Positions 1 through 14,740 of a stretch of 56,557 nucleotides of DNA are shown here, piece by piece (positions within the stretch are counted from its first letter, which is position 1; every line of letters begins with the position of its first letter). The notes under the pieces are model-generated. The model did no database searches. It saw only the letters and a program-made list of their open reading frames with translations, and had not been told where the DNA came from. The stretch comes from Methylomonas koyamae (lineage in GTDB: Bacteria; Pseudomonadota; Gammaproteobacteria; Methylococcales; Methylomonadaceae), in assembly GCF_001644025.1 (NCBI RefSeq), contig NZ_LUUK01000205.1:1-56557 (forward strand), written 5' to 3'. Both the position numbers and the translations under genes were made by a program.

Positions 1-111
1 AGCGGAGTCGAAGGGAACGTCTCCCATCCAAACGCCGAATCGATACAATGCCTCCCACGCCAAACCAACCGGCATCGACTTGGATTTTTGACCAGCCAAA
101 GGAAAACTCGA

Positions 112-690
112 ATGACTCGCTCGATCGCGAAACCGGCCAATCCGCAGGGGAAGGGGAGCGTCGCCGTGCTGGACAGCTTGCAGCAGGCCCGGAACCAATT
201 GGTCGCCCCGGCCAAAAGCCTGCGGCAAATCAGCAGCGACTTGTTTACCTCGTTGTTCGTGTTAAACAGCCACATTCGTTTCAAACCGACCGCCAAGCAA
301 ACCTATTGGCTGTATCTGAAAGACGGCGAATATCGGCTGTCGTTGATCGCGCCGGTGCAGTGGTCGCCGGATCGGTCCGGCCGCTTCATTGGCGCCTGCG
401 AGCTGCAAGCCGATTTGACCTGGACCCTGGAACTGTCCGCCGATTGCGCCAACGACCGGGCCTTCCTGCAAACAATAGCCGAACGCCGCCGGCAACTGGA
501 ACAGGCACTGCAACAGGCCGAAAAAATCGGAGACGCTTTGCCGGTCTACGTCGAAACCCTGCCGTATTACGCCAGAGTGCTGGCCTCGGCGTTGGCGTAT
601 TCGTTGAAGCAATCGATGCAAAAATCCGGCATATTGGGTTTGAGCTTTCGGCAAGCCGAAAAGCAACGGCGGCTGACTCAAACCGAATAG
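112..690 (+). CDS. DUF2452 domain protein
   Basis: About 192 residues. I recognise the DUF2452 family from the block GPAKSLRQISSDLF-like near the N-terminus, the RFKP..TYWLY segment and the LPVYVETLPYYARVLASALAYS region. The family is soluble and has no established biochemical role. The ATG at 112 is preferred over a TTG at 88 because AAAGGAAAA lies just upstream of it. No signal peptide or membrane segment is seen. It is the only convincing gene in the first 1.7 kb and has no operon partner in the window. Family assignment is fairly sure; function is unknown. Confidence 0.8.
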   Translation: MTRSIAKPANPQGKGSVAVLDSLQQARNQLVAPAKSLRQISSDLFTSLFVLNSHIRFKPTAKQTYWLYLKDGEYRLSLIAPVQWSPDRSGRFIGACELQADLTWTLELSADCANDRAFLQTIAERRRQLEQALQQAEKIGDALPVYVETLPYYARVLASALAYSLKQSMQKSGILGLSFRQAEKQRRLTQTE

Positions 691-808: not shown

Positions 809-1312
809 TTGAACAGTCGCGCGGCCGTGTTTGAACCGCAACGATCTCATCGCGACAGCCAACGCCGTCGTTTGCATGTGCAAGCTTCTTATCCGAACCG
901 TCGGCGTTGCCATTTAAACATCCACGTTTCTCCGCCGAACAGGCAGACTTGCCTGTTGAACACGCAGTCTTCTGCGATGCACATGCAACGTCGATGGTTT
1001 AACACGCAAGCTTTCATGTTCACCACGCAAGCGTCGCCGATCAAGAGGCGCGGGCCGCTGTTCATCGGACACGCGCCGCTGTTCGACGGAAACGGCCGAC
1101 TGTCCATCGGCGACATCTCGGTGTTCGCATAAAATCGCCGCGTGTTCATCGGCGGGCGCCCGGTGATTATTCGCGGAACGCGGGTGTTAAACACTGGCCG
1201 CCCGGTGTTCGAATCAGACGCTTGCCTGTTAACCAAGCATCGCTCGCTGTTCGCGTTGGAATGCCGGCTGTTTAGCGGCGATGTTTGCGTGTCCGGCATG
1301 AAGCAACGCCCC
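809..1312 (+). repeat. Degenerate 21-bp array, 24 units
   Basis: The stretch divides into 24 consecutive units of exactly 21 bp with no insertion or deletion. Units share a loose core such as CTGTTNAACACGCAAGC, and many contain TGTT followed by AACA or ATCGG. Because 21 is a multiple of three, open frames in both directions show seven-residue periodicity: LNTQxxx-like on the plus strand, xxNTRxx-like on the minus strand. The plus frame is broken by a stop at 1130-1132, so a plus-strand protein is unlikely. A minus-strand frame of about 19 heptads (889-1299) is open, but it has no clear start signal or known fold. The first eight units match the array at 11537-11704 unit by unit. Confidence 0.75.
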
Positions 1313-1741: not shown

Positions 1742-2146
1742 TCATACGACAATGACCTTTATTTCCTGAATAGCAGCCAGCTTCTTATCACCGGTCAAAA
1801 ACTGGTCCGCTCCGGACAAGAGGGCACAAGCCAGTTGGATCGCATCCGGGGTGCGTAAGGTTCCCGCATGGTTGGCGCGTAGTTCGGTGGCGATGTCGAT
1901 GACCGTGGTATCGAGTTCGACGATTTCCAAACCCGGCAATCGAAAAAATCGGTCGTAGCAGTCCAATAATTCCGCGTTCCTGGTTTTCAACGGCAGCACC
2001 CGGCATTCCAGAAAGGAAAGCCGCGATACCGCCAATTGCGCGTTCGCTTTCCGAGCATCATCCACCAGGACGCGGGTTTTTCGGCCTTGTTCCTGGTGCG
2101 ACTCGATCAAATAAATGACGGCGCAAGCGTCCAGGAACAGTTTCAC
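1742..2146 (-). CDS. PIN-domain ribonuclease toxin (VapC-like)
   Basis: About 134 residues with the acidic residues expected of a PIN domain: LFLDACAVIYLIE at the N-terminus, a mid-protein FLEC, TPDAIQLA and GADQFLTGD near the C-terminus. VapC toxins are RNases held inactive by a VapB antitoxin. The GTG at 2146 overlaps the stop of the upstream gene (GTGA), implying translational coupling; a second GTG lies at 2158. It forms a two-gene module with the preceding small gene, downstream of the large STAND ATPase. The RNA target is unknown. Confidence 0.85.
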   Translation of the reverse strand: MKLFLDACAVIYLIESHQEQGRKTRVLVDDARKANAQLAVSRLSFLECRVLPLKTRNAELLDCYDRFFRLPGLEIVELDTTVIDIATELRANHAGTLRTPDAIQLACALLSGADQFLTGDKKLAAIQEIKVIVV

Positions 2147-2373
2147 GGTTGATCCCACTCGTCGCGCATGGTTTGAAATTCTGCGTCGATTTCTGCATCG
2201 CTACGTTGTCCGATAGGCAGACTTTGCAGGAAAGCGGCCAAGGCTTCGTCGGCTGCGGGTTCCGGTGTCGAGTCGGGCTTCGATTCCAGAAATTCGACGA
2301 AATGTAAGACCTCCAAGGCTTTGGCAGGCGGCAGGGTCTTGACGTGTTGGTAGATGGTGTCGGCGATGGTCAT
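2143..2373 (-). CDS. Small antitoxin-like protein (VapB/DUF2281 type)
   Basis: A 76-residue acidic protein. Its N-terminal helix TIADTIYQHVKTLPPAKALEV and the LHFVEFLE segment resemble DUF2281-like antitoxins, and the acidic tail fits a toxin-binding region. It lies immediately before the PIN gene and overlaps it by four bases. GGAG lies about 11 bases before the ATG. Likely role (inferred from order and size): antitoxin and autoregulator of the pair. It follows the STAND gene on the same strand by about 60 bp, so read-through from that unit is possible. Confidence 0.75.
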   Translation of the reverse strand: MTIADTIYQHVKTLPPAKALEVLHFVEFLESKPDSTPEPAADEALAAFLQSLPIGQRSDAEIDAEFQTMRDEWDQP

Positions 2374-2434: not shown

Positions 2435-5400
2435 TCAAGGTTCTTCAATATCAATTTTTTGCTTTACGCAAACGATTTCATTTTGCTTGTTCAATGAATA
2501 AACGAATGAATGAACTCTGCGCCCAACGAAATCATCGTGATGCTCGCCATATGCGCCTTTTTCTCCAGCAATAATCCAGACCGGAGCCAAGTTTTCTTTA
2601 TCCAGTAAATCTAAAAATGCCATTCTATCGATCAGTGCTGCGCTTGGCCCTTCTTCATGCACCGAGGGATCTTTGAACAAAATTTGGCCTTTCGCGTCTG
2701 CGAATGACAATGTGCGTCCGTCAATTAGTCTTAAACCAAGTTTTTGTATTAGCCACGGCGCCGGCAAATAAGTATTGATCGTCCCTTCAATCGAGCAATC
2801 GTAACCTCCACGTTCCGCAGTGTACTCGGCGAATGTAGTTAACACTTTATGCCGAAAGCCATAGTCACGATCAACCGTTGACCAGTCATCGTCTATTTCG
2901 TACGACGGATGCCAAGGGTATTCGCCTATAAATGAGCCATAAAATTCGCCGACTTTCGGAAATGCATCAGGATCAATCAAGTTATGTGTGGAAATTGCAT
3001 CAATGAATTGGTTTTTATACCGATTTCTAACAACCACACACCAGCATCTGCACCATGAGTCGATACGCGCATCCAAATCATAGGAAGTGCTGTACTGCTT
3101 AAAACTTTTCATAACCAACCAGCGCTGACCTGTGTCCGGATCGATTACATCCAGCAACGATGCACTATTCAATTGGTCGGATTCGTTTTGTAACCAGAGT
3201 TTTTGCTCCTGCTTCTTCAGTAAGCGCAACTTTAGCGTTTGTGGTGACCACCAAGCATGGGGATGATTTTCCCAATTGTCGTCTTTGGTTTTACTAATAA
3301 GTAATGAAGGATCGATATTTCGTTTGTATATTTGCCAAGGACCTTCATATCGGTTAGCGCCATCGCTATAACCGGAGTAATAAATCAGATTATCGGCCAT
3401 ACGAGACAACAATTCATACAAAGCTAACCATTGGTATTTTTTTCCAATCCGTTCCATTTGTTTATGGCGTCTGCCTCGGCCGGAGCCAATTCTTCTATCG
3501 AATTCTCCAAATAAATCAGTTGACCATCCGTAATCGTGAGCCCTTTTGGTTACCCATAGCTGAGCTAAAATATCGTCAAAATGCTCAGGTAGATTATTCG
3601 AATATCGATTCAGAATTTGTCTTATTCTTTGTCGGCATCCAGGCCAGTATTTGTATTTATATTTGTCATCGAGTAAGTTAATAAATTTTGTTTCAAGCTC
3701 TTCGAATCTGGCTTCGTTTTGCTTCTTAATTTCTAACTCCTTATAGTCATAAGCAATAATTTTGATCTTGATTTCAGTGCTGGACGCCTTTTTTTGTGAT
3801 TCTTGACCTACCGAATTTGGCTCCGGTCTATTGCAGTCGATACAGAATTGTAGAATTTCATTAAATGCCGAAAGTTGGTCGGAATTTGCATGATCGGCAA
3901 ACATTGAATAGAAGACTTCAAAGTTTTCGTATGGTGTTAACGCCTTATCGACGCCAAGCGGTGTTGTTGTCCAATGATGAACTGAAGGTTTGATAATATA
4001 TTTGGCAAAATCGCCAAGCCACTCGCTGCTTGCCGACCTAACAATATCATCTTTGTATTTGTCGCCATATATCTCTAAATTATTTTCGGCTACAAATTCA
4101 ATCGGCCAATCACTTTGATAGGGCGGCCGTACTTTTTCAATTTTAATTTCTTCAGGCAATAAGTCACAATGCAATGTGTATTCGATAATACCCCTGGCGT
4201 AGTCGCGCAGTAGCAAATGGGCTGGCGGCTTACCATCGGCAAAAATCCATTGGTAAACAAAAAGAGCAAGTTCGGCAAGATTTTTCTGGGTTTGTGCTTG
4301 TAATGCAGCGCCATAGCAGGCGGCCAATAATCGCTCTAAAATGTAAAGGTCATCGACCTGCTTGAAGCGTTCCAACAAGCTAAGTGCCAACGGCAAACGT
4401 GGCGCCAGTAAAGCGGACAATCCCTTGGTAGCCCGATCTCGAACAGCGCGATACGATGTCGAAAATAACCATGTCAACATAATTGCCGCCAGTTCGGCAC
4501 GCAGCGGATCTATTTCCTCAAAACCCGATTCCACTGTCCAGGAAAGCAATATATCAAGTGGTGAACCATCCTCTAGTTCGAGATTAGCGATAGCAATAGT
4601 CCATTTCGCATCGCGCTCAAGCATCGTCAGATGAGCTAATTTTTCATGCAGATAATTGGCATTGAAGCGGTTGTTGGGCTCCGTACCAACTGCGATAAGC
4701 GTTTCCAGCCAGTGATTCGGATAATTTTGCGATAAACCAATCACTAATTCACGGGTTCTATCGGTAAAAAAATTCTGACGGCGCAATAATAAACTTTTAA
4801 AAAATGCTTCATTAATTGTCCATTTGTATGATCCGTTCGCTGATGGAAATATATCGAGCAATTCGTAATCCGTAGATTCTGGCAGCAAAACCGCTAAAGC
4901 GTGGATAATGTCGGCAACCCTATTTATATCTTTACGGGAAAGAAAAGTATGTAGCGGAGTCCCTGTTTCCAAGGGTTGAACGCTATTTTTCGAAGAAATA
5001 TGCTCATTTAACAAATGCCCAGCAATTTGAAAATCGCTGAAACGCTCGAACGTAAAACGTGCTTGTTCTTCTAACTGATTATTTTCGATATAAACAGGCT
5101 CAATCGTTAAAATTCCCTCGTGTTCAAATTGGCTCAACAAGCTGCGATCTTGTTGGCCCTTAGAAGCATATATCGAATCAAAACAAGCGATAGTCGTTTC
5201 AATTGAAAGGTAGGAAGATTGATTGGATGTTAGTTTTTCAGTAAATGCCTTTAACGCACGCACAATAATATTCTGCCGTTTATCCAGCCCCATCCGCAAT
5301 TCAATTTGGTTGGCTAATGATTTAAGATAAAAATCGAAATATTCCGTTAAACCTTGTATTCCTCGTGGAAAACAATCGAGCCCTTGTCGTTCCAAACTGT

Positions 5401-6967
5401 CGCACAAGGTTTTAAGGAAAAGCGGGTTGTTAAATTCTGGCAATAAGTGCGGAACACTAGGCCTGATAATTTTGCGTTTGGCCAGATAAGTTCTGGCTGC
5501 GTATCCGCCTCCATCGGCAAAACCGTTGTGTTCTATCTGCTTCAAGCTATCGCACAGAAGAGAATCGGCTGGCAAAATAAAGGGCAGGTAAGTTGTGCGG
5601 CATGAAACGATAAGGGCAAGATGAGGGTAGCGTTTAACTTCTTCGATTAACGGTGCCAGGTATTGAGGCCAAATTTCGGTACCGAAACGTTCGTTTAATG
5701 CGTCGATTATCAGCAATGCTCTCACGCCTGCGGCTTGGCCCGCCGCATCCAACGCTCCAAGAAAAGTTGAAAATGGAATATGCCTTAAATCCAAGTGCTC
5801 AAGAATTTGCGTACGTGGGTCTTGTTGGAAGAACTGACTATTAATCAAAAAAATAGTCGGGTAACCTTTTTTGATCGCATCATTGGCAATATCAGCCAAC
5901 AGATGAGATTTGCCTGTTCCTGCTTCGCCGTAAAGAAGCACAGCCTGTTCATTTGCCAGTATCCAAGTATCTGAGTTTAGTTTTTCGTCTATTTCATCAA
6001 GCGTTTGTCCGAACCCATGAAGTTCGTTTAATGCGGCCCGGATATTATCTTTTTTAGATTTATCTTTTTCTTCTGAGTCGAGGTGCCAGAAATGGGCCTG
6101 CCATTGATTCGCAGCAGTTTGAACTTGTTGAATTTGGCTGCGCCAATCCGCGATGGGATAAGGCTTTGTTATGGGAAAACTTTGCTTGAGCGCGTCGATT
6201 AAGTTGTTGCTGTAATTTAATAGAACCTTTAAATCGGTTTCCGAGACATTGGCCTGCTGAAAGTCATATTTTAGGCTATTGAGTTGTTTTCTTAGTGGCG
6301 TAATTAATTCCTCTCGCTGATCCTCAAGCCAAGGTGATCGACTAATGCCTAAAAACACCTGCCGTATTGGTAACGATATATGAAATTGAGGTGTATATCG
6401 GGAATCTAAAGAAATACAGGCAGCGTTGATGTGTCGAGAAAACCAAACAGGCGTAAAGCGAAGTTCATCAAAGAAAAAACTTATCCTCCCGGCGTAATAC
6501 GGATCGTTGCGATGCAAGCGTTCTCGAATATCGGTGGCTTGCCAAAGTATAATTTCAATATTGCGCTCTTCGCTTAATTCTGAGAGACGAGTTGTTTTCC
6601 AATCTATCCAGCGTTGCCCCTCTGTTTTATTCTTTCCGGTTCTCCCGTCTTTAAGATCTATTGGCAAACAGACGATATAGCGGGTCAGTTTTGGATGCTT
6701 TTCGATGGCTTGTTTCAAAGACTCGGTAAGCTGAGATATCTGGCCGGAATCAAATTTATCGAAGAATTTTGCTTGCCAACCTGTTTCGGTTCCGTCAGCG
6801 TGACGTATGTAGCATTCAACTCCGGCATCTGATCCAATACCTTTGCGGAGAAACTCATCTTCTATTGCTCTTGGTTCAAGAGATGCAAGCTGACAACATA
6901 ATTCTTCGAAAGCAAAGTGTTGGCTACCGTTCAATGCTCGAATTTTTAGTAATTCGGTGTTATTCAT
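2435..6967 (-). CDS. PD-(D/E)XK nuclease / STAND ATPase, Avs-like
   Basis: 1510 residues. The N-terminal 70 residues contain FEEL, then GIGSDAGVE and GWQAKFF; D47 and Q65-x-K67 fit a PD-(D/E)XK nuclease core. A linker with RYTPQFHISLPI (about 190-201) leads to a P-loop GEAGTGKS (347-354) and Walker B ALLIIDALNE (417-426). The remaining roughly 1000 residues are helical-looking and would be the sensor. This order (nuclease, STAND NTPase, long C-terminal sensor) is that of Avs anti-phage proteins, which sense phage proteins and then cut DNA. Base composition is visibly AT-richer than the flanks, suggesting transfer. Its start overlaps the stop of the upstream small gene (ATGA). The exact Avs type and whether it defends are not decidable here. 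Confidence 0.75.
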   Translation of the reverse strand: MNNTELLKIRALNGSQHFAFEELCCQLASLEPRAIEDEFLRKGIGSDAGVECYIRHADGTETGWQAKFFDKFDSGQISQLTESLKQAIEKHPKLTRYIVCLPIDLKDGRTGKNKTEGQRWIDWKTTRLSELSEERNIEIILWQATDIRERLHRNDPYYAGRISFFFDELRFTPVWFSRHINAACISLDSRYTPQFHISLPIRQVFLGISRSPWLEDQREELITPLRKQLNSLKYDFQQANVSETDLKVLLNYSNNLIDALKQSFPITKPYPIADWRSQIQQVQTAANQWQAHFWHLDSEEKDKSKKDNIRAALNELHGFGQTLDEIDEKLNSDTWILANEQAVLLYGEAGTGKSHLLADIANDAIKKGYPTIFLINSQFFQQDPRTQILEHLDLRHIPFSTFLGALDAAGQAAGVRALLIIDALNERFGTEIWPQYLAPLIEEVKRYPHLALIVSCRTTYLPFILPADSLLCDSLKQIEHNGFADGGGYAARTYLAKRKIIRPSVPHLLPEFNNPLFLKTLCDSLERQGLDCFPRGIQGLTEYFDFYLKSLANQIELRMGLDKRQNIIVRALKAFTEKLTSNQSSYLSIETTIACFDSIYASKGQQDRSLLSQFEHEGILTIEPVYIENNQLEEQARFTFERFSDFQIAGHLLNEHISSKNSVQPLETGTPLHTFLSRKDINRVADIIHALAVLLPESTDYELLDIFPSANGSYKWTINEAFFKSLLLRRQNFFTDRTRELVIGLSQNYPNHWLETLIAVGTEPNNRFNANYLHEKLAHLTMLERDAKWTIAIANLELEDGSPLDILLSWTVESGFEEIDPLRAELAAIMLTWLFSTSYRAVRDRATKGLSALLAPRLPLALSLLERFKQVDDLYILERLLAACYGAALQAQTQKNLAELALFVYQWIFADGKPPAHLLLRDYARGIIEYTLHCDLLPEEIKIEKVRPPYQSDWPIEFVAENNLEIYGDKYKDDIVRSASSEWLGDFAKYIIKPSVHHWTTTPLGVDKALTPYENFEVFYSMFADHANSDQLSAFNEILQFCIDCNRPEPNSVGQESQKKASSTEIKIKIIAYDYKELEIKKQNEARFEELETKFINLLDDKYKYKYWPGCRQRIRQILNRYSNNLPEHFDDILAQLWVTKRAHDYGWSTDLFGEFDRRIGSGRGRRHKQMERIGKKYQWLALYELLSRMADNLIYYSGYSDGANRYEGPWQIYKRNIDPSLLISKTKDDNWENHPHAWWSPQTLKLRLLKKQEQKLWLQNESDQLNSASLLDVIDPDTGQRWLVMKSFKQYSTSYDLDARIDSWCRCWCVVVRNRYKNQFIDAISTHNLIDPDAFPKVGEFYGSFIGEYPWHPSYEIDDDWSTVDRDYGFRHKVLTTFAEYTAERGGYDCSIEGTINTYLPAPWLIQKLGLRLIDGRTLSFADAKGQILFKDPSVHEEGPSAALIDRMAFLDLLDKENLAPVWIIAGEKGAYGEHHDDFVGRRVHSFVYSLNKQNEIVCVKQKIDIEEP

Positions 6968-7188: not shown

Positions 7189-8012
7189 ATTCGATTTTCC
7201 AATTCCGGCGGGCTGACGGCCGGTTAGTTAAAGAGCTCAGTGTTTTAGCTAATTTTCCGAACAATGTCACGTTGCAATCGGAGAATGCTAGCAAAAGCCA
7301 TGGTTTACCGATCGGTTGGGTCACGAACCATTTTATTTCTCAGTCGTTTGATTGCATATCCAAGTCCGAGTCTGACAGGGGGCTTGCCACAAACAAATTC
7401 AATCCGAGCGAATGTCAGGTAGATATCTGATTTAAGCCTACCGGATTCGAAAGATCGGGGGCTGCAAATAGCCGTTTGGTCCGCCAAAAAGGCAAAACTC
7501 GCTCAGCCAATCCTCGACAAGCCGCTGGCAGCGCTGACAGTGGGCCATAGGATCGAAACTACGGAGCGGTTGATAGCTGCCGAGGCAGGAGGAACAGCGG
7601 GGCGCGGTCTGTTTGAGTTCTATTGATTGGGGGGCTTGGTGTTTTCTGTTCCCTTCGGCTCCGCTCAGGGAACGGCGGCTGTAGACAGGCAACGGCAGCT
7701 CTAAACAGGGAGAGGTGGCTTCACTTAGGGAACGCGCAAGTTGCTTAGGGGAACAAATAACCCGCTTGAGAAATGAACGGAACCATTCATGGCGCTAAAG
7801 GCTACTCGAGGGGGCGAAGGATTTCGTTCGCGAATCGAACGATTCCGATTAGCGAGTGACGGGCATGTTCCCGGAGCGGACTTAAAGGGAAGCTGCCGGT
7901 TATTGAAACACTGACGGTTCGGCTCCATCGCATCCCGAAATCGCTTCGCGCGGTTCGGGATGCTTTGGCCGGAAAGCGCGGTCCGCCGGCTTTATTGGGG
8001 GCTTGCGTTCGC
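7189..8012. other. 824-bp intergenic region
   Basis: No confident gene. A minus-strand frame at 7438-7692 encodes CSSC and CQRC, 19 residues apart, like a zinc ribbon. It starts only at a TTG, and its first residues come from a common repeat (CCTTCGGCTCCGCTCAGG near 7652), so it may be a broken remnant. A short 21-bp periodic stretch lies at about 7673-7756. The promoter of the HEPN/STAND unit should lie near 7190-7300 but I see no clear boxes. Confidence 0.4.
7673..7756. repeat. Short 21-bp periodic stretch
   Basis: At least three units of 21 bp (7673-7693, 7694-7714, 7715-7735) followed by a partial fourth. They share a GGC(T/A)..C(T)..ACAGGGAA-like core. The period equals that of the arrays at 809 and 11537, though the sequence match is weaker, so kinship is tentative. 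Confidence 0.4.
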
Positions 8013-8630: not shown

Positions 8631-11282
8631 TTACGGGCAAGTCGCTTGCGCGGAAGGTCCCGGCGCTTTGCCGTAGATGCGTTTGAACAAGCCCAGGTCC
8701 AGCGAGTTAACGTTGCCGTCGCCGTTCATGTCGGCCGCGGCCTTCAGGTCGGCATTGCCGGCGGCGTTACCGTAAACGCTTTTGAACAAGCCCAAGTCCA
8801 GCGAGTTGGTTTTGCAATCGTTGTTCAAATCGGCATCGCAGAGGTTGCCGAAGTGATCGCCGTTGCTATCCAGTTGCGTGGCGTTGGCGAGCGCGGTGCA
8901 GTTGTCCACCGCATCGACCACGCCGTCGCCGTCGCCATCGGTGCCGGCCGCTTGAGTAACCGCTAACTGGGCGGCGTTTTGATTGCTGCCGCCCAATACC
9001 GTCAGGTTGCCGATACGGGTGTTGAGCGCCGGATTGACCGCGACGTTGTATTGAATCGTCGCCGGGCCGCTGCCGCTGGTCGGTGACATCACGCTTAGCC
9101 AAGCCGCGTCGCTTTGCAATTGCCAGGCGCAATTCGCGCCGGTGGTCAGCGTCGCGCTGAAGCTGCCGGCGCTGTTGGCGGCGGCTTGGCTGCCGGGTTG
9201 CAGGCTATAAGAACACGCGGCATTGACGGTAATGGTCGCCGTGGCCGGAACCGCACCCTTGTTGCCGGTGCTCGTCACGGTGTTTTTGGCGCCGTCGTAG
9301 CCGGCGAACAAGAAGCTATCGGTGCCGCTGAAGCCTTCTTCCGGGAAGTAGGTGGCGACCGCATTGTTCAAGCCGACCGTGCCGTGTTGCGGCTGCTTCA
9401 GGATGCGCATCGTCACGCCGGTGCCGGTGACCGGCAAGGTCAAATTGACCGGTGTGCCGGCGGCGGTGCTTGCCGAAACGTCGGCGGTGATCGGATAGGC
9501 CGCCGTGTTCATGCTTTCGCTGTTCGGACCTCGGTGGCAGGAATAGCAGCCGACCGTGCCACCCCGATAGAATTTGACCGTACCTAGGCTCTCGACGTTG
9601 AACGAGCGGTCGCCCTGGACTCGCGACAACTCGGTACCGCGCAGGTCGCTACCGTGGCAGCCTTTGCAGCCGGCGGTACCGGAGCGCTCGACCGCGTCAC
9701 CGTGCCGGCCCACCCAGGATTGGTCGATCGGGTGCAGTCCGTGCGGACCGCCGTTGGTGGTGTTGGGTACGCCGGCGGTGTGGCAGGTTTTGCATTCCAC
9801 CGTCACGCCGGCATGGCCTTGCAGTTGCTCGTTGCGGATATTGTCGTTTTGATGAGACGACGGGAATTCCGCATGGGTGGAGCCGTGGCAGGCGGAACAT
9901 TGCAAGCCGCCGTGACCCTTGGAAAAACGATACAACGACAATCCGGCGGCCGGCGTATCGGCGTTGGTGGCGAAGGTTGGGTTGACCGCGACCCGTTGGC
10001 TGTCGTAGGTCAGCGGATTGTTGAACACCGAGCTGTAACGGATTTTGCCGTTGTTGTTGGTGGCGGTGCCGGTATGGCAGCTTTGGCAAGTGGGCTCTTC
10101 GAGCCAGCCGGTGCGATGGCTGTCGCCGACCTTGCTCATGTTGCCGTGGCAGCTTTGGCATTGCATTTCCATGCTGCCGTCGGCGGCGACCGCGCTACCC
10201 ATCGCGCCGCGCAAGCAGCGGGTTTTGGAACCGGGGTGGCAGTCGTAGCAGGCCGCGCGATTGTCGGAGCTATCCAAGGTCAGCGAACTGCCTGGCGCGG
10301 TGACGGTGGCATGGGTACTGTGTACCGATTGGGTCAGCGCCGGCACGGTGCCGTTGGCGCCGCTAAAACTAGGCGCACCCAGTGCTTCGGAGGAATGGCA
10401 AGCCGCGCACAGCATGGGCTTGACCTGTACGCCCGGCATCGCCGGGTCCTGGTCGGTGGTCGCGGCGGCGTACAAGCCGGCCGGGTCCAGGCCTTTGGCG
10501 GCAAGCGCTTCGTTGTACAAGGCGGCGTGCTCGGCGAATTCGGTGTCGTCGTGCAGTTTGAGTATGTTCAACCGGTATTCGCGCTCCAGGTTGGCATCGC
10601 TGATCCAACCGCCGGCTGGTTTGGCCTTGTCGTTGGTATTGGCGGCGTGGCAGGTTTTGCAGCTCATTTCGTCGGAGACCGGTAACACGATGTCGGTTTG
10701 CGCGACCACGGCGTTGTTGGCATCTCGGGCGACCAAACGCATCAACGGATAGGTGTTTTTGTTGCCCTGATCGTCGGTGGGCGTGATCGGCACGCCTTCG
10801 GCCTGGTAGGTATTTTCCGGCGAGTTGGCCGGTTGAAAGCTCATCGGTTGCGCGGTGTTCAGCACGTAAGGACTATCGATCCCCGGCATGTTGCAGCCCG
10901 CCAAGCCCATGTCGGCGGTGTAGGCCGGATTGAACGTTTTCAAAACCGGAAACAGCGTGGGCGCGTAGGTTTCCCAATCGCTCTTGCCGCTGGAGGTGCT
11001 GTTCATCACGCCGCTGACTGGATCGACGATGGCCTGATAACTCAGCGTGTAATCGGCGGCGTTCGGTACCGTGCTGGCCTTCATCAATTTGCCGCCGACG
11101 ATCAATTGCGCTTCGATGGTGTTGTAAGGCGGCAGGATCGCGAATTCGGCGTAGCGCGAATCCATGCAGTGCATGCCAAGATTATTCCAGCCCAACAAAA
11201 CCGCATTGGCGGCCTGGCTTTGGTGGCTCATCATCAAGCCCAAAAGGCTGGTCAGCAGAATCAGAAAACCGGTTTTTCTCAT
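8631..11282 (-). CDS. Nine-haem exported cytochrome c with dockerin-like C-terminus
   Basis: About 883 residues. A signal peptide (LILLTSLLGLMMSHQSQA) is followed by a domain with NLGMHCMD and then nine CxxCH sites (CKTCH, CAACH, CYDCH, CQSCH twice, CSACH, CKTCH, CKGCH, CYSCH). Ig/BACON-like beta repeats follow (ATITVNAACSYSLQPGSQ..., WLSVMSPTSGSGPATIQY). The end has a calcium-binding DGDGDGVVDAVDNC segment and two duplicated loops, DLNNDCKTNSLDLGLFK and DMNGDGNVNSLDLGLFK, typical of dockerin type I. ATG at 11282 is preferred over a TTG nine bases upstream. The arrangement suggests an extracellular electron carrier docked to a cohesin partner such as the next gene; partner and electron acceptor are inference. 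Confidence 0.85.
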   Translation of the reverse strand: MRKTGFLILLTSLLGLMMSHQSQAANAVLLGWNNLGMHCMDSRYAEFAILPPYNTIEAQLIVGGKLMKASTVPNAADYTLSYQAIVDPVSGVMNSTSSGKSDWETYAPTLFPVLKTFNPAYTADMGLAGCNMPGIDSPYVLNTAQPMSFQPANSPENTYQAEGVPITPTDDQGNKNTYPLMRLVARDANNAVVAQTDIVLPVSDEMSCKTCHAANTNDKAKPAGGWISDANLEREYRLNILKLHDDTEFAEHAALYNEALAAKGLDPAGLYAAATTDQDPAMPGVQVKPMLCAACHSSEALGAPSFSGANGTVPALTQSVHSTHATVTAPGSSLTLDSSDNRAACYDCHPGSKTRCLRGAMGSAVAADGSMEMQCQSCHGNMSKVGDSHRTGWLEEPTCQSCHTGTATNNNGKIRYSSVFNNPLTYDSQRVAVNPTFATNADTPAAGLSLYRFSKGHGGLQCSACHGSTHAEFPSSHQNDNIRNEQLQGHAGVTVECKTCHTAGVPNTTNGGPHGLHPIDQSWVGRHGDAVERSGTAGCKGCHGSDLRGTELSRVQGDRSFNVESLGTVKFYRGGTVGCYSCHRGPNSESMNTAAYPITADVSASTAAGTPVNLTLPVTGTGVTMRILKQPQHGTVGLNNAVATYFPEEGFSGTDSFLFAGYDGAKNTVTSTGNKGAVPATATITVNAACSYSLQPGSQAAANSAGSFSATLTTGANCAWQLQSDAAWLSVMSPTSGSGPATIQYNVAVNPALNTRIGNLTVLGGSNQNAAQLAVTQAAGTDGDGDGVVDAVDNCTALANATQLDSNGDHFGNLCDADLNNDCKTNSLDLGLFKSVYGNAAGNADLKAAADMNGDGNVNSLDLGLFKRIYGKAPGPSAQATCP

Positions 11283-11447
11283 GGTGTTCAACCTATTACC
11301 TTCAATAATCGGTGACGAGTACTCGCGCGAGGCTTCCTGTCTTCTGGCTTGGATTCTAAGATCGCAACGCGAGTCGTGACGAACGGCGGAACCGGAAAAG
11401 TTCCCGGCTGAACATTAGCATTTAATAATTAACTTAAAATTAATTTA

Positions 11448-11536: not shown

Positions 11537-11704
11537 TTGAACAGTCGAGCGTCAGTGTTAGACCGGCGGCGGTCTAATAGAGATAGGCAACGTTGCCGTT
11601 TGCATGCGCGGCGTTCTTATACCAACACTCGGCATCGCCATGTAAACAGCCAAGCTTCTCCGCTGAACAGGCAGACATGCCCATTGAACACGCGGTCACC
11701 GATC
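11537..11704 (+). repeat. Second 21-bp array, eight units
   Basis: Eight gap-free 21-bp units that correspond one-to-one with the first eight units of the array at 809-1312: translated units read LNSRASV, LDRRRSN, RDRQRCR, LHARRSY and so on here, against MNSRAAV, FEPQRSH, RDSQRRR, LHVQASY there. The matching order shows duplication of a pre-existing array, not independent expansion. Confidence 0.75.
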
Positions 11705-14455: not shown

Positions 14456-14482
14456 TCGGAGTCGGAGTCGGAGTCGGAGTCG
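14456..14482. repeat. GTCGGA hexamer microsatellite
   Basis: About four tandem copies of GTCGGA immediately before the decayed kinase sequence. It is short and possibly arose with the duplication scar. Confidence 0.5.
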
Positions 14483-14740
14483 GCGAAGACGACCGGCAAC
14501 GCTTCTATTCGCCGTTCTTCCGCCCCGAATCTGCCTGGCGGATAGACAATGCCGGCCACGGTTTGGGTCGGGCGGGGCGCCGTCGGGGCCATGATCGGCG
14601 GCGAGTTCGATTCGCCGACCCTGGCCCAAGCCGAGCAGCAGGGTTATCTGGTGTTGCACAAGCGGTCGGACCCGGTGGCTTCGTATGCTCTGCTAAGCCG
14701 GCTATTGCCATCCGATCTGCCGACAGGGGTAGCCCAGACA
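14478..14740 (+). pseudogene. Decayed fragment of the hybrid histidine kinase
   Basis: Translated in one frame this reads EDDRQR-FYSPFFRPESAWRIDNAGHGLG; in another frame it continues AVGAMIGGEFDSPTL...GYLVLHK...LLSRLLPS. Both halves align with the intact hybrid kinase at 17744-19561 (FSPFFRPEHAWRIDNAGHGLG and AVGAMISGEFDS...GYVVLHKP). About 400 bp of the original between them is missing and the frame is shifted. It is thus an internally deleted, non-coding duplicate. The palindrome at 13802 may belong to the same duplicated locus. Confidence 0.8.

Follow-up and report, generated by a model that had tools for sequence, protein, structure and literature searches.

What holds a tandem array to an exact 21-bp step while the letters of its units drift apart? 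The question is raised by positions 809-1312 of a 56,557-nt stretch of Methylomonas koyamae DNA (contig NZ_LUUK01000205.1; the whole stretch is hereafter the window), where an earlier note had seen 24 units of exactly 21 bp with no indel. The region, here array A, indeed divides into gap-free 21-mers, and no indel is required across the 24 units. Stacked at 21 bp, it holds 0.482 bits per column, as compared to 0.102 (sd 0.015) for mono-nucleotide shuffles (n=1000, maximum 0.159 bits per column); other periods from 15 to 30 yield 0.06-0.14 bits, except for period 28 (0.26). Tandem Repeats Finder detects just 1053-1110, because the units are too diverged for more of the array to be reported.

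The description of the array in the earlier note was right, but it overlooked that the right half is inverted: against a profile of the left half, the right half scores 8.6 in inverted and 1.3 in direct orientation. In particular, unit scores and the profile delimit a left arm on the plus strand (809-1060) with about 11-12 units of 21 bp and the consensus tTgAACAsnSRnnnTYnnnG, a polarity switch at about 1040-1060, and a right arm on the minus strand (1061-1296) with 11 units that are the reverse complement of the left-arm unit. The arms face one another, with opposed polarity, and share one 21-bp register with an offset of +5 nt between unit starts; when the right half is compared to a profile made from the left arm plus the partner array, a single inverted phase scores positively, at 9.3, against negative scores for the other 20. 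Altogether, 23 of the 24 units fit the profile in one orientation or the other, a count that is partly circular as the profile was built from array A units and the partner; the last unit (1292-1312) matches in neither orientation. Just outside the array, the unit at 788-808 has a score of 12.0 when read in the opposite orientation and is possibly an extra outer unit. Mirror units are no more alike than other unit pairs, and an origin of array A as one inverted duplication is therefore rejected. The partner, partner B (11537-11704, plus strand), consists of eight left-arm units only, in the same order as in 809-976. As the earlier note had it, the first eight units are repeated in order; 125 of 168 positions are identical, and the best diagonal has 15.6/21 against a mean of 10.0.

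Array A lies between a gene for a DUF2452 protein (88-690, plus strand) and one for a PIN-domain protein (1742-2158, minus strand). Six named Methylomonas records have relatives of the DUF2452 protein with 76-79% protein identity, and the 4 kb retrieved to either side of these contain no 21-bp array. Beside array A, and separate from it, is an inverted repeat at 1586-1630 (GGAGCGACGCATAGTCGC...) that we take to be REP-like; such dispersed repeats also adjoin other arrays and occur in other Methylomonas genomes. Further along the window, the PIN-domain gene is adjoined by a minus-strand gene (2435-6967) for a 1510-aa NTPase, matched over nearly its full length by Avs2 anti-phage defence models (PADLOC E=0), and a second minus-strand gene (8631-11291) encodes a multihaem cytochrome-like protein with BACON, Big_9 and dockerin type I domains. 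There are also two short tandem repeats, with a 20-bp unit CAGGGAACGGCAGCTCTAAA at 7666-7711 and a 6-bp unit TCGGAG at 14456-14483; by eye, the former resembles repeats near L265 4403-4550.

The genome contains six arrays of this sequence family, which we call AACA, in addition to partner B. DNA and profile searches place the further arrays on contigs C232, C195, C179 and C203, and a weak one on C172 (E 0.003 and above). A second genome of the species, G041, has seven AACA arrays and a partner, including counterparts of array A, the partner, C203, C179 and C172, a single counterpart for the C195/C232 pair, and two additional loci (L052 and L053). At E<=0.001, the unit profile matches 2 of 37 Methylomonas genomes, both of this species. 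Every two-armed AACA array scanned has a plus arm followed by a minus arm at a constant offset, and the inverted fit beats the direct one in 7 of 8 Methylomonas arrays. There is no clear unit order shared among AACA arrays, except between array A and its partner and within the C232/C195 pair. Extended shared flanks are confined to C232 and C195, a segmental duplicate with 92% identity over 928 bp, and to their G041 counterpart; the right flank of array A aligns with that of C232 over 122 bp at 67%.

The arrays have no constant neighbour gene among the proteins scanned; neighbours differ between loci. Array A and L045 sit between convergent genes and the other arrays do not, and a promoter or terminator role is rejected since gene orientation around the arrays is not constant. 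At the two loci examined for an empty site (L052 and L053), no clean one was found: at L052, strain G000 is rearranged upstream of the adjoining murein endopeptidase gene, and the context of the L053 array was not found in this strain. Directly adjoining the L045 array is a gene for a TIR / NB-ARC / TPR protein (L045 6329-8755, minus strand). Defence-type genes are near several arrays, namely Avs2 (array A), TIR/NB-ARC (L045), methylase and HerA-like genes (L048) and a PD-Lambda-5-like gene (L047); a link of the arrays with defence genes is unproven, and none are among the proteins scanned at the remaining loci.

The earlier note had proposed that selection acts on the spacing. Across seven comparisons of strain or paralog pairs, substitutions number 250 in 2969 array sites and 259 in 4020 flank sites, or 0.084 and 0.064 per site, so that the arrays substitute like their flanks; in contrast, the arrays have almost no indels. 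The flanks contain 21 indels, none a multiple of 21, while the arrays contain two, whose lengths are exactly 21 bp and 1 bp. Expressed per substitution, non-21 indels are 1/250 in arrays and 21/259 in flanks (p=1.3e-5), with 15 of the 21 flank indels stemming from two comparisons that share L048. When the L047 comparison is left out, the counts are 0/213 and 14/200 (p=1e-4); for the five one-to-one ortholog pairs alone, they are 0/151 and 6/156 (p=0.03). Between two strains, the single indel in array A is one exact 21-bp unit, extra and perfect in G041; together with near-identical units in C203/L051, it implies ongoing tandem duplication. The spacing itself thus seems to be the property that matters. 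However, substitutions in the arrays are often clustered, which suggests conversion between units, and in-register conversion could imitate a spacing constraint by removing indels.

The letters do not drift evenly. Across 90 units, position 5 is A in 96% and position 6 is C in 92%, while positions 1, 3 and 20 are near random; across 145 units, positions 5 and 6 hold 1.43 and 1.00 bits and positions 1, 3 and 20 hold 0.10-0.13. Conservation confined to certain positions is not expected from the neutral decay of identical units. For the five ortholog pairs, 29 of 630 sites changed at seven conserved positions, which were picked after the profile had been seen, as compared to 108 of 1260 elsewhere (p=0.0014). 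There is no positional difference for L046 and L047 versus L048 (core 29/273, other 56/546) or for L044 (core 11/126, other 22/252); all seven comparisons together yield an odds ratio (OR) of 0.69 (p=0.017), and for isolated substitutions alone in the five pairs the difference is not significant (p=0.065). Gene conversion between units could also mimic the lower change at core positions. Moreover, the unit is weakly dyad symmetric: the consensus is so in 8 of 9 unit stacks (p<=0.026; L156 is not), where the nine include two overlapping Methylomonas stacks and several with fewer than 20 units.

Arrays with this period but other unit sequences occur elsewhere. Searched against 369 genomes of the class, the unit profile has three weak matches beside its own genome; L054 is a repeat that lies in a 278-aa frame, L055 is another 21-bp intergenic family and L056 is not periodic. 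The search led to G354, a genome of another family with multi-locus 21-bp arrays of its own (L129-L135), whose neighbouring units often alternate in orientation; L129, L131 and L132 contain inverted pairs that resemble GACTCATTTTGGGGCG / CGCCCCAAAATGAGTC. The G354 arrays were not found in 38 other genomes of its family that were searched. A motif search for four AACA at 21-bp steps matched 71 of 301 genomes of the order, which is not a count of true arrays, as it includes coding and exact repeats and the backwards control matches many genomes; arrays in long frames (L157, L158 and L162) and low-complexity coding sequence are among the matches. Among 20 stretches selected from the listed motif matches, 11 have periodic regions of about 413-553 bp. 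For 13 arrays from other genera, not all independent since L148 and L149 are near copies, an inverted second half is the better fit in six (narrowly in L167) and a direct second half in five, with two ambiguous. Counting motifs in 11 of these arrays gives 63 AACA and 39 TGTT for the first halves and 35 AACA and 47 TGTT for the second halves; in L166, one of the six with an inverted fit, opposed arms are absent by these counts. Arrays with an inverted second half are present in another genus of the family.

Further, a 1.2-Mb sample of G041, which was not chosen by motif and holds none of the known arrays, contains six non-coding periodic arrays with periods of 21 (twice), 42, 27, 57 and 10, while a 600-kb shuffled control contains none. 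Inside long frames of the sample, the most frequent period is likewise 21 (4), which is what coding heptads would produce. The unit sequences of the non-coding 21- and 42-bp arrays are unrelated to array A, and the unrelated G041 families with a 21-bp or double period comprise a GGCT type, a CCCGGG type and a 42-bp alternating type. The GGCT-type 21-bp array is at G041 C1:4687083-4687481 (L224 12083-12481), and the further non-coding periodic arrays of 42 and 21 bp, with other unit sequences, are at L265 4781-5389 and L252 14134-14427; L224 and L252 have no opposed arms. Of 37 Methylomonas genomes, 12 have matches to the GGCT family, and its arrays in two other genomes (L269 and L273) have some 22-bp steps, read by eye. 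A 400-kb sample of G591, from another genus of the family, has no non-coding 21-bp array, and 183 kb of G603 contain one near-identical 21-bp array, partly within an open frame, beside 40- and 41-bp arrays.

Several explanations other than a spacing-selected binding element would account for a 21-bp step. A degenerate protein-coding gene with heptad repeats, the other possibility named in the earlier note, would do so because 21 bp are seven codons; its description of a plus-frame stop at 1130 and of a minus frame open over 889-1299 is correct, and long open frames of 323 codons (stop to stop) over L051 and of 223 codons over most of L050 also point this way. Nevertheless, a heptad-repeat gene is rejected, and even in degenerate form it is scarcely credible. 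In the four two-armed arrays that were translated, none of the six frames is free of stops, and the short partner B has one open frame; 189 substitutions, summed by hand, fall evenly on the codon positions (60/61/68); and the third codon position of AAC is over-conserved, being C in 92% of 90 units, where 11 window genes use AAC and AAT 160 : 138. Among 20 arrays fetched from other genomes, 11 have no frame of at least 100 aa across half of the array, three are clearly in frames of 560-640 aa and six are in shorter ones. A non-coding RNA, folded as a row of hairpins or as one long two-armed hairpin, is an unlikely reading. The folding energy is low on both strands (z -3.4 and -2.9), which follows from the opposed arms; the consensus is dyad symmetric; and neighbouring units of the G354 arrays are complementary (antidiagonal z 6.5). 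Yet the window has no Rfam match at gathering score, so that a known structured RNA family is rejected, and the 145 Methylomonas units lack clear covariation, with z at most 2.3 within units and up to 3.0-3.6 between neighbour units, the latter among hundreds of column pairs. Six other stacks lack clear covariation as well (best z 3.2 of 55 tests), and the complementarity of left units to their mirror units does not exceed that to other units, leaving unit-internal hairpins and arm-arm pairing unsupported.

The main rival is a selfish or neutral minisatellite family, functionless, whose units multiply by slippage and in-register conversion and whose arrays are spread by segmental duplication; we regard it as doubtful, with a real chance of being correct. 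It explains the dispersal, the unit duplication and the pace of change, considering that arrays substitute at least as fast as flanks, that perfect or near-identical units arise (G041 and C203/L051), that two loci are a segmental duplicate, that gene context is not fixed and that the AACA family is found in one species only. It does not easily explain the depletion of non-21 indels, the conservation at some unit positions only or the opposed arms, which are in register in AACA arrays despite no clear shared unit order, or the similar length and period across unrelated sequence families; in-register conversion could account for part of the first two. Minisatellites and VNTRs share tandem units and whole-unit copy change between strains, but the arrays here have units at about half identity, uneven conservation of unit positions, an inverted second half and few non-unit indels, a depletion that conversion in register could imitate. 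Chromosomal leftovers of transposase or plasmid initiator sites, resembling transposon ends or iterons, are a decidedly improbable source. Opposed arms of sites spaced by about 21 bp do recall both; an IS200-like Y1 transposase gene adjoins one array; and REP-like repeats adjoin several. However, no initiator or DDE transposase domain is present in the 29 neighbour proteins (9 in the window and 20 near other arrays; several have no Pfam match), extended shared flanks are limited to the C232/C195 loci with their G041 counterpart, beside the short array A/C232 match, and neither L052 nor L053 revealed a clean empty site. In plasmid iterons, such as those of P1 and F, a single protein binds in phase to polar sites of about 20 bp, which are spaced by close to two helical turns. 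The gap-free 21-bp stack of array A resembles them in having phased repeats within the range of about 17-22 bp; unlike iterons, the arrays have about 24 sites in two opposed arms rather than a single orientation, and occur at several chromosomal loci with several unrelated unit sequences per genome. The plasmid centromeres of R1 and pSK41 (parC) are likewise gap-free phased tandem sites in two groups, whereas the arrays here are chromosomal, multi-locus and strongly diverged, with no par genes among the neighbours scanned. REP/BIME elements are dispersed, intergenic, palindromic and lineage-specific, as are these units; in contrast, the arrays are longer, with strict 21-bp spacing, convergent arms and no clear covariation of stem-loop arms in 145 units, and the REP-like repeats lie apart nearby. 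CRISPR arrays combine near-identical repeats with unique spacers, while the array units are diverged throughout. Overall, none of the named repeat classes fits; no description of such arrays was found in the titles and abstract openings from literature searches.

A phased binding element fits the dyad symmetry, the opposed arms and the families with the same spacing, and a protein is predicted to bind it. We lean, at slightly short of an even chance, toward array A being a member of a class of intergenic phased DNA lattices of this methanotroph lineage, whose putative sites are selected for spacing and read by a protein. The period, the opposed arms, the weak dyad symmetry, the several loci, the indel depletion and the non-coding character are observed; the reader protein, its cooperative binding and the cellular role are inferred. 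In such a lattice, near-palindromic sites, about 20-25 in number and spaced by exactly 21 bp, or two helical turns, would all lie on one face of the helix, and the reversal of polarity at mid-array, together with the near-palindromic sites, would confer two-fold symmetry on the whole. A sequence-specific protein would bind many units side by side, forming a phased nucleoprotein structure. Whole units would be gained or lost by tandem duplication and letters would drift or convert between units, while spacing changes would be purged by selection; the structure may serve local chromosome architecture, anchoring or silencing. Of the proposals in the earlier note, selection on spacing is supported, with the qualification of conversion, the helically phased binding element fits as a prediction, and the coding heptad is unsupported, given its stops and lack of codon bias.

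Support for the lattice comes from AACA arrays with in-register opposed arms, indel depletion, position-limited conservation, the dyad symmetry of most stacks, the same or double period in unrelated families and the inverted second halves in another genus. Counting against it, there is no candidate binding protein or constant neighbour gene among the proteins scanned; the positional test is negative in L044, L046 and L047; opposed arms are not universal; GGCT arrays in two other genomes have, by eye, some 22-bp steps; and the 400 kb of G591 have no non-coding 21-bp array. More tentatively still, at well under an even chance, the methanotrophs of this family may share an element class defined by geometry. 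Its members would have about 20-25 dyad sites exactly 21 bp apart with polarity often reversed at mid-array; one genome would contain several sequence families unrelated to each other, and each family would have its own putative reader and form phased nucleoprotein lattices, with selection on spacing and symmetry and concerted turnover of the letters.

Such arrays largely escaped the similarity searches, Rfam and the tandem-repeat finders applied here. Even if they are selfish, diverged repeats held in a 21-bp register call for a mechanism. If the lattice reading is right, intergenic bacterial DNA holds elements conserved in their helical spacing and mirror symmetry, and the arrays would provide a way in to the question whether such lattices organise the bacterial chromosome, and to methanotroph reader proteins of a new kind.
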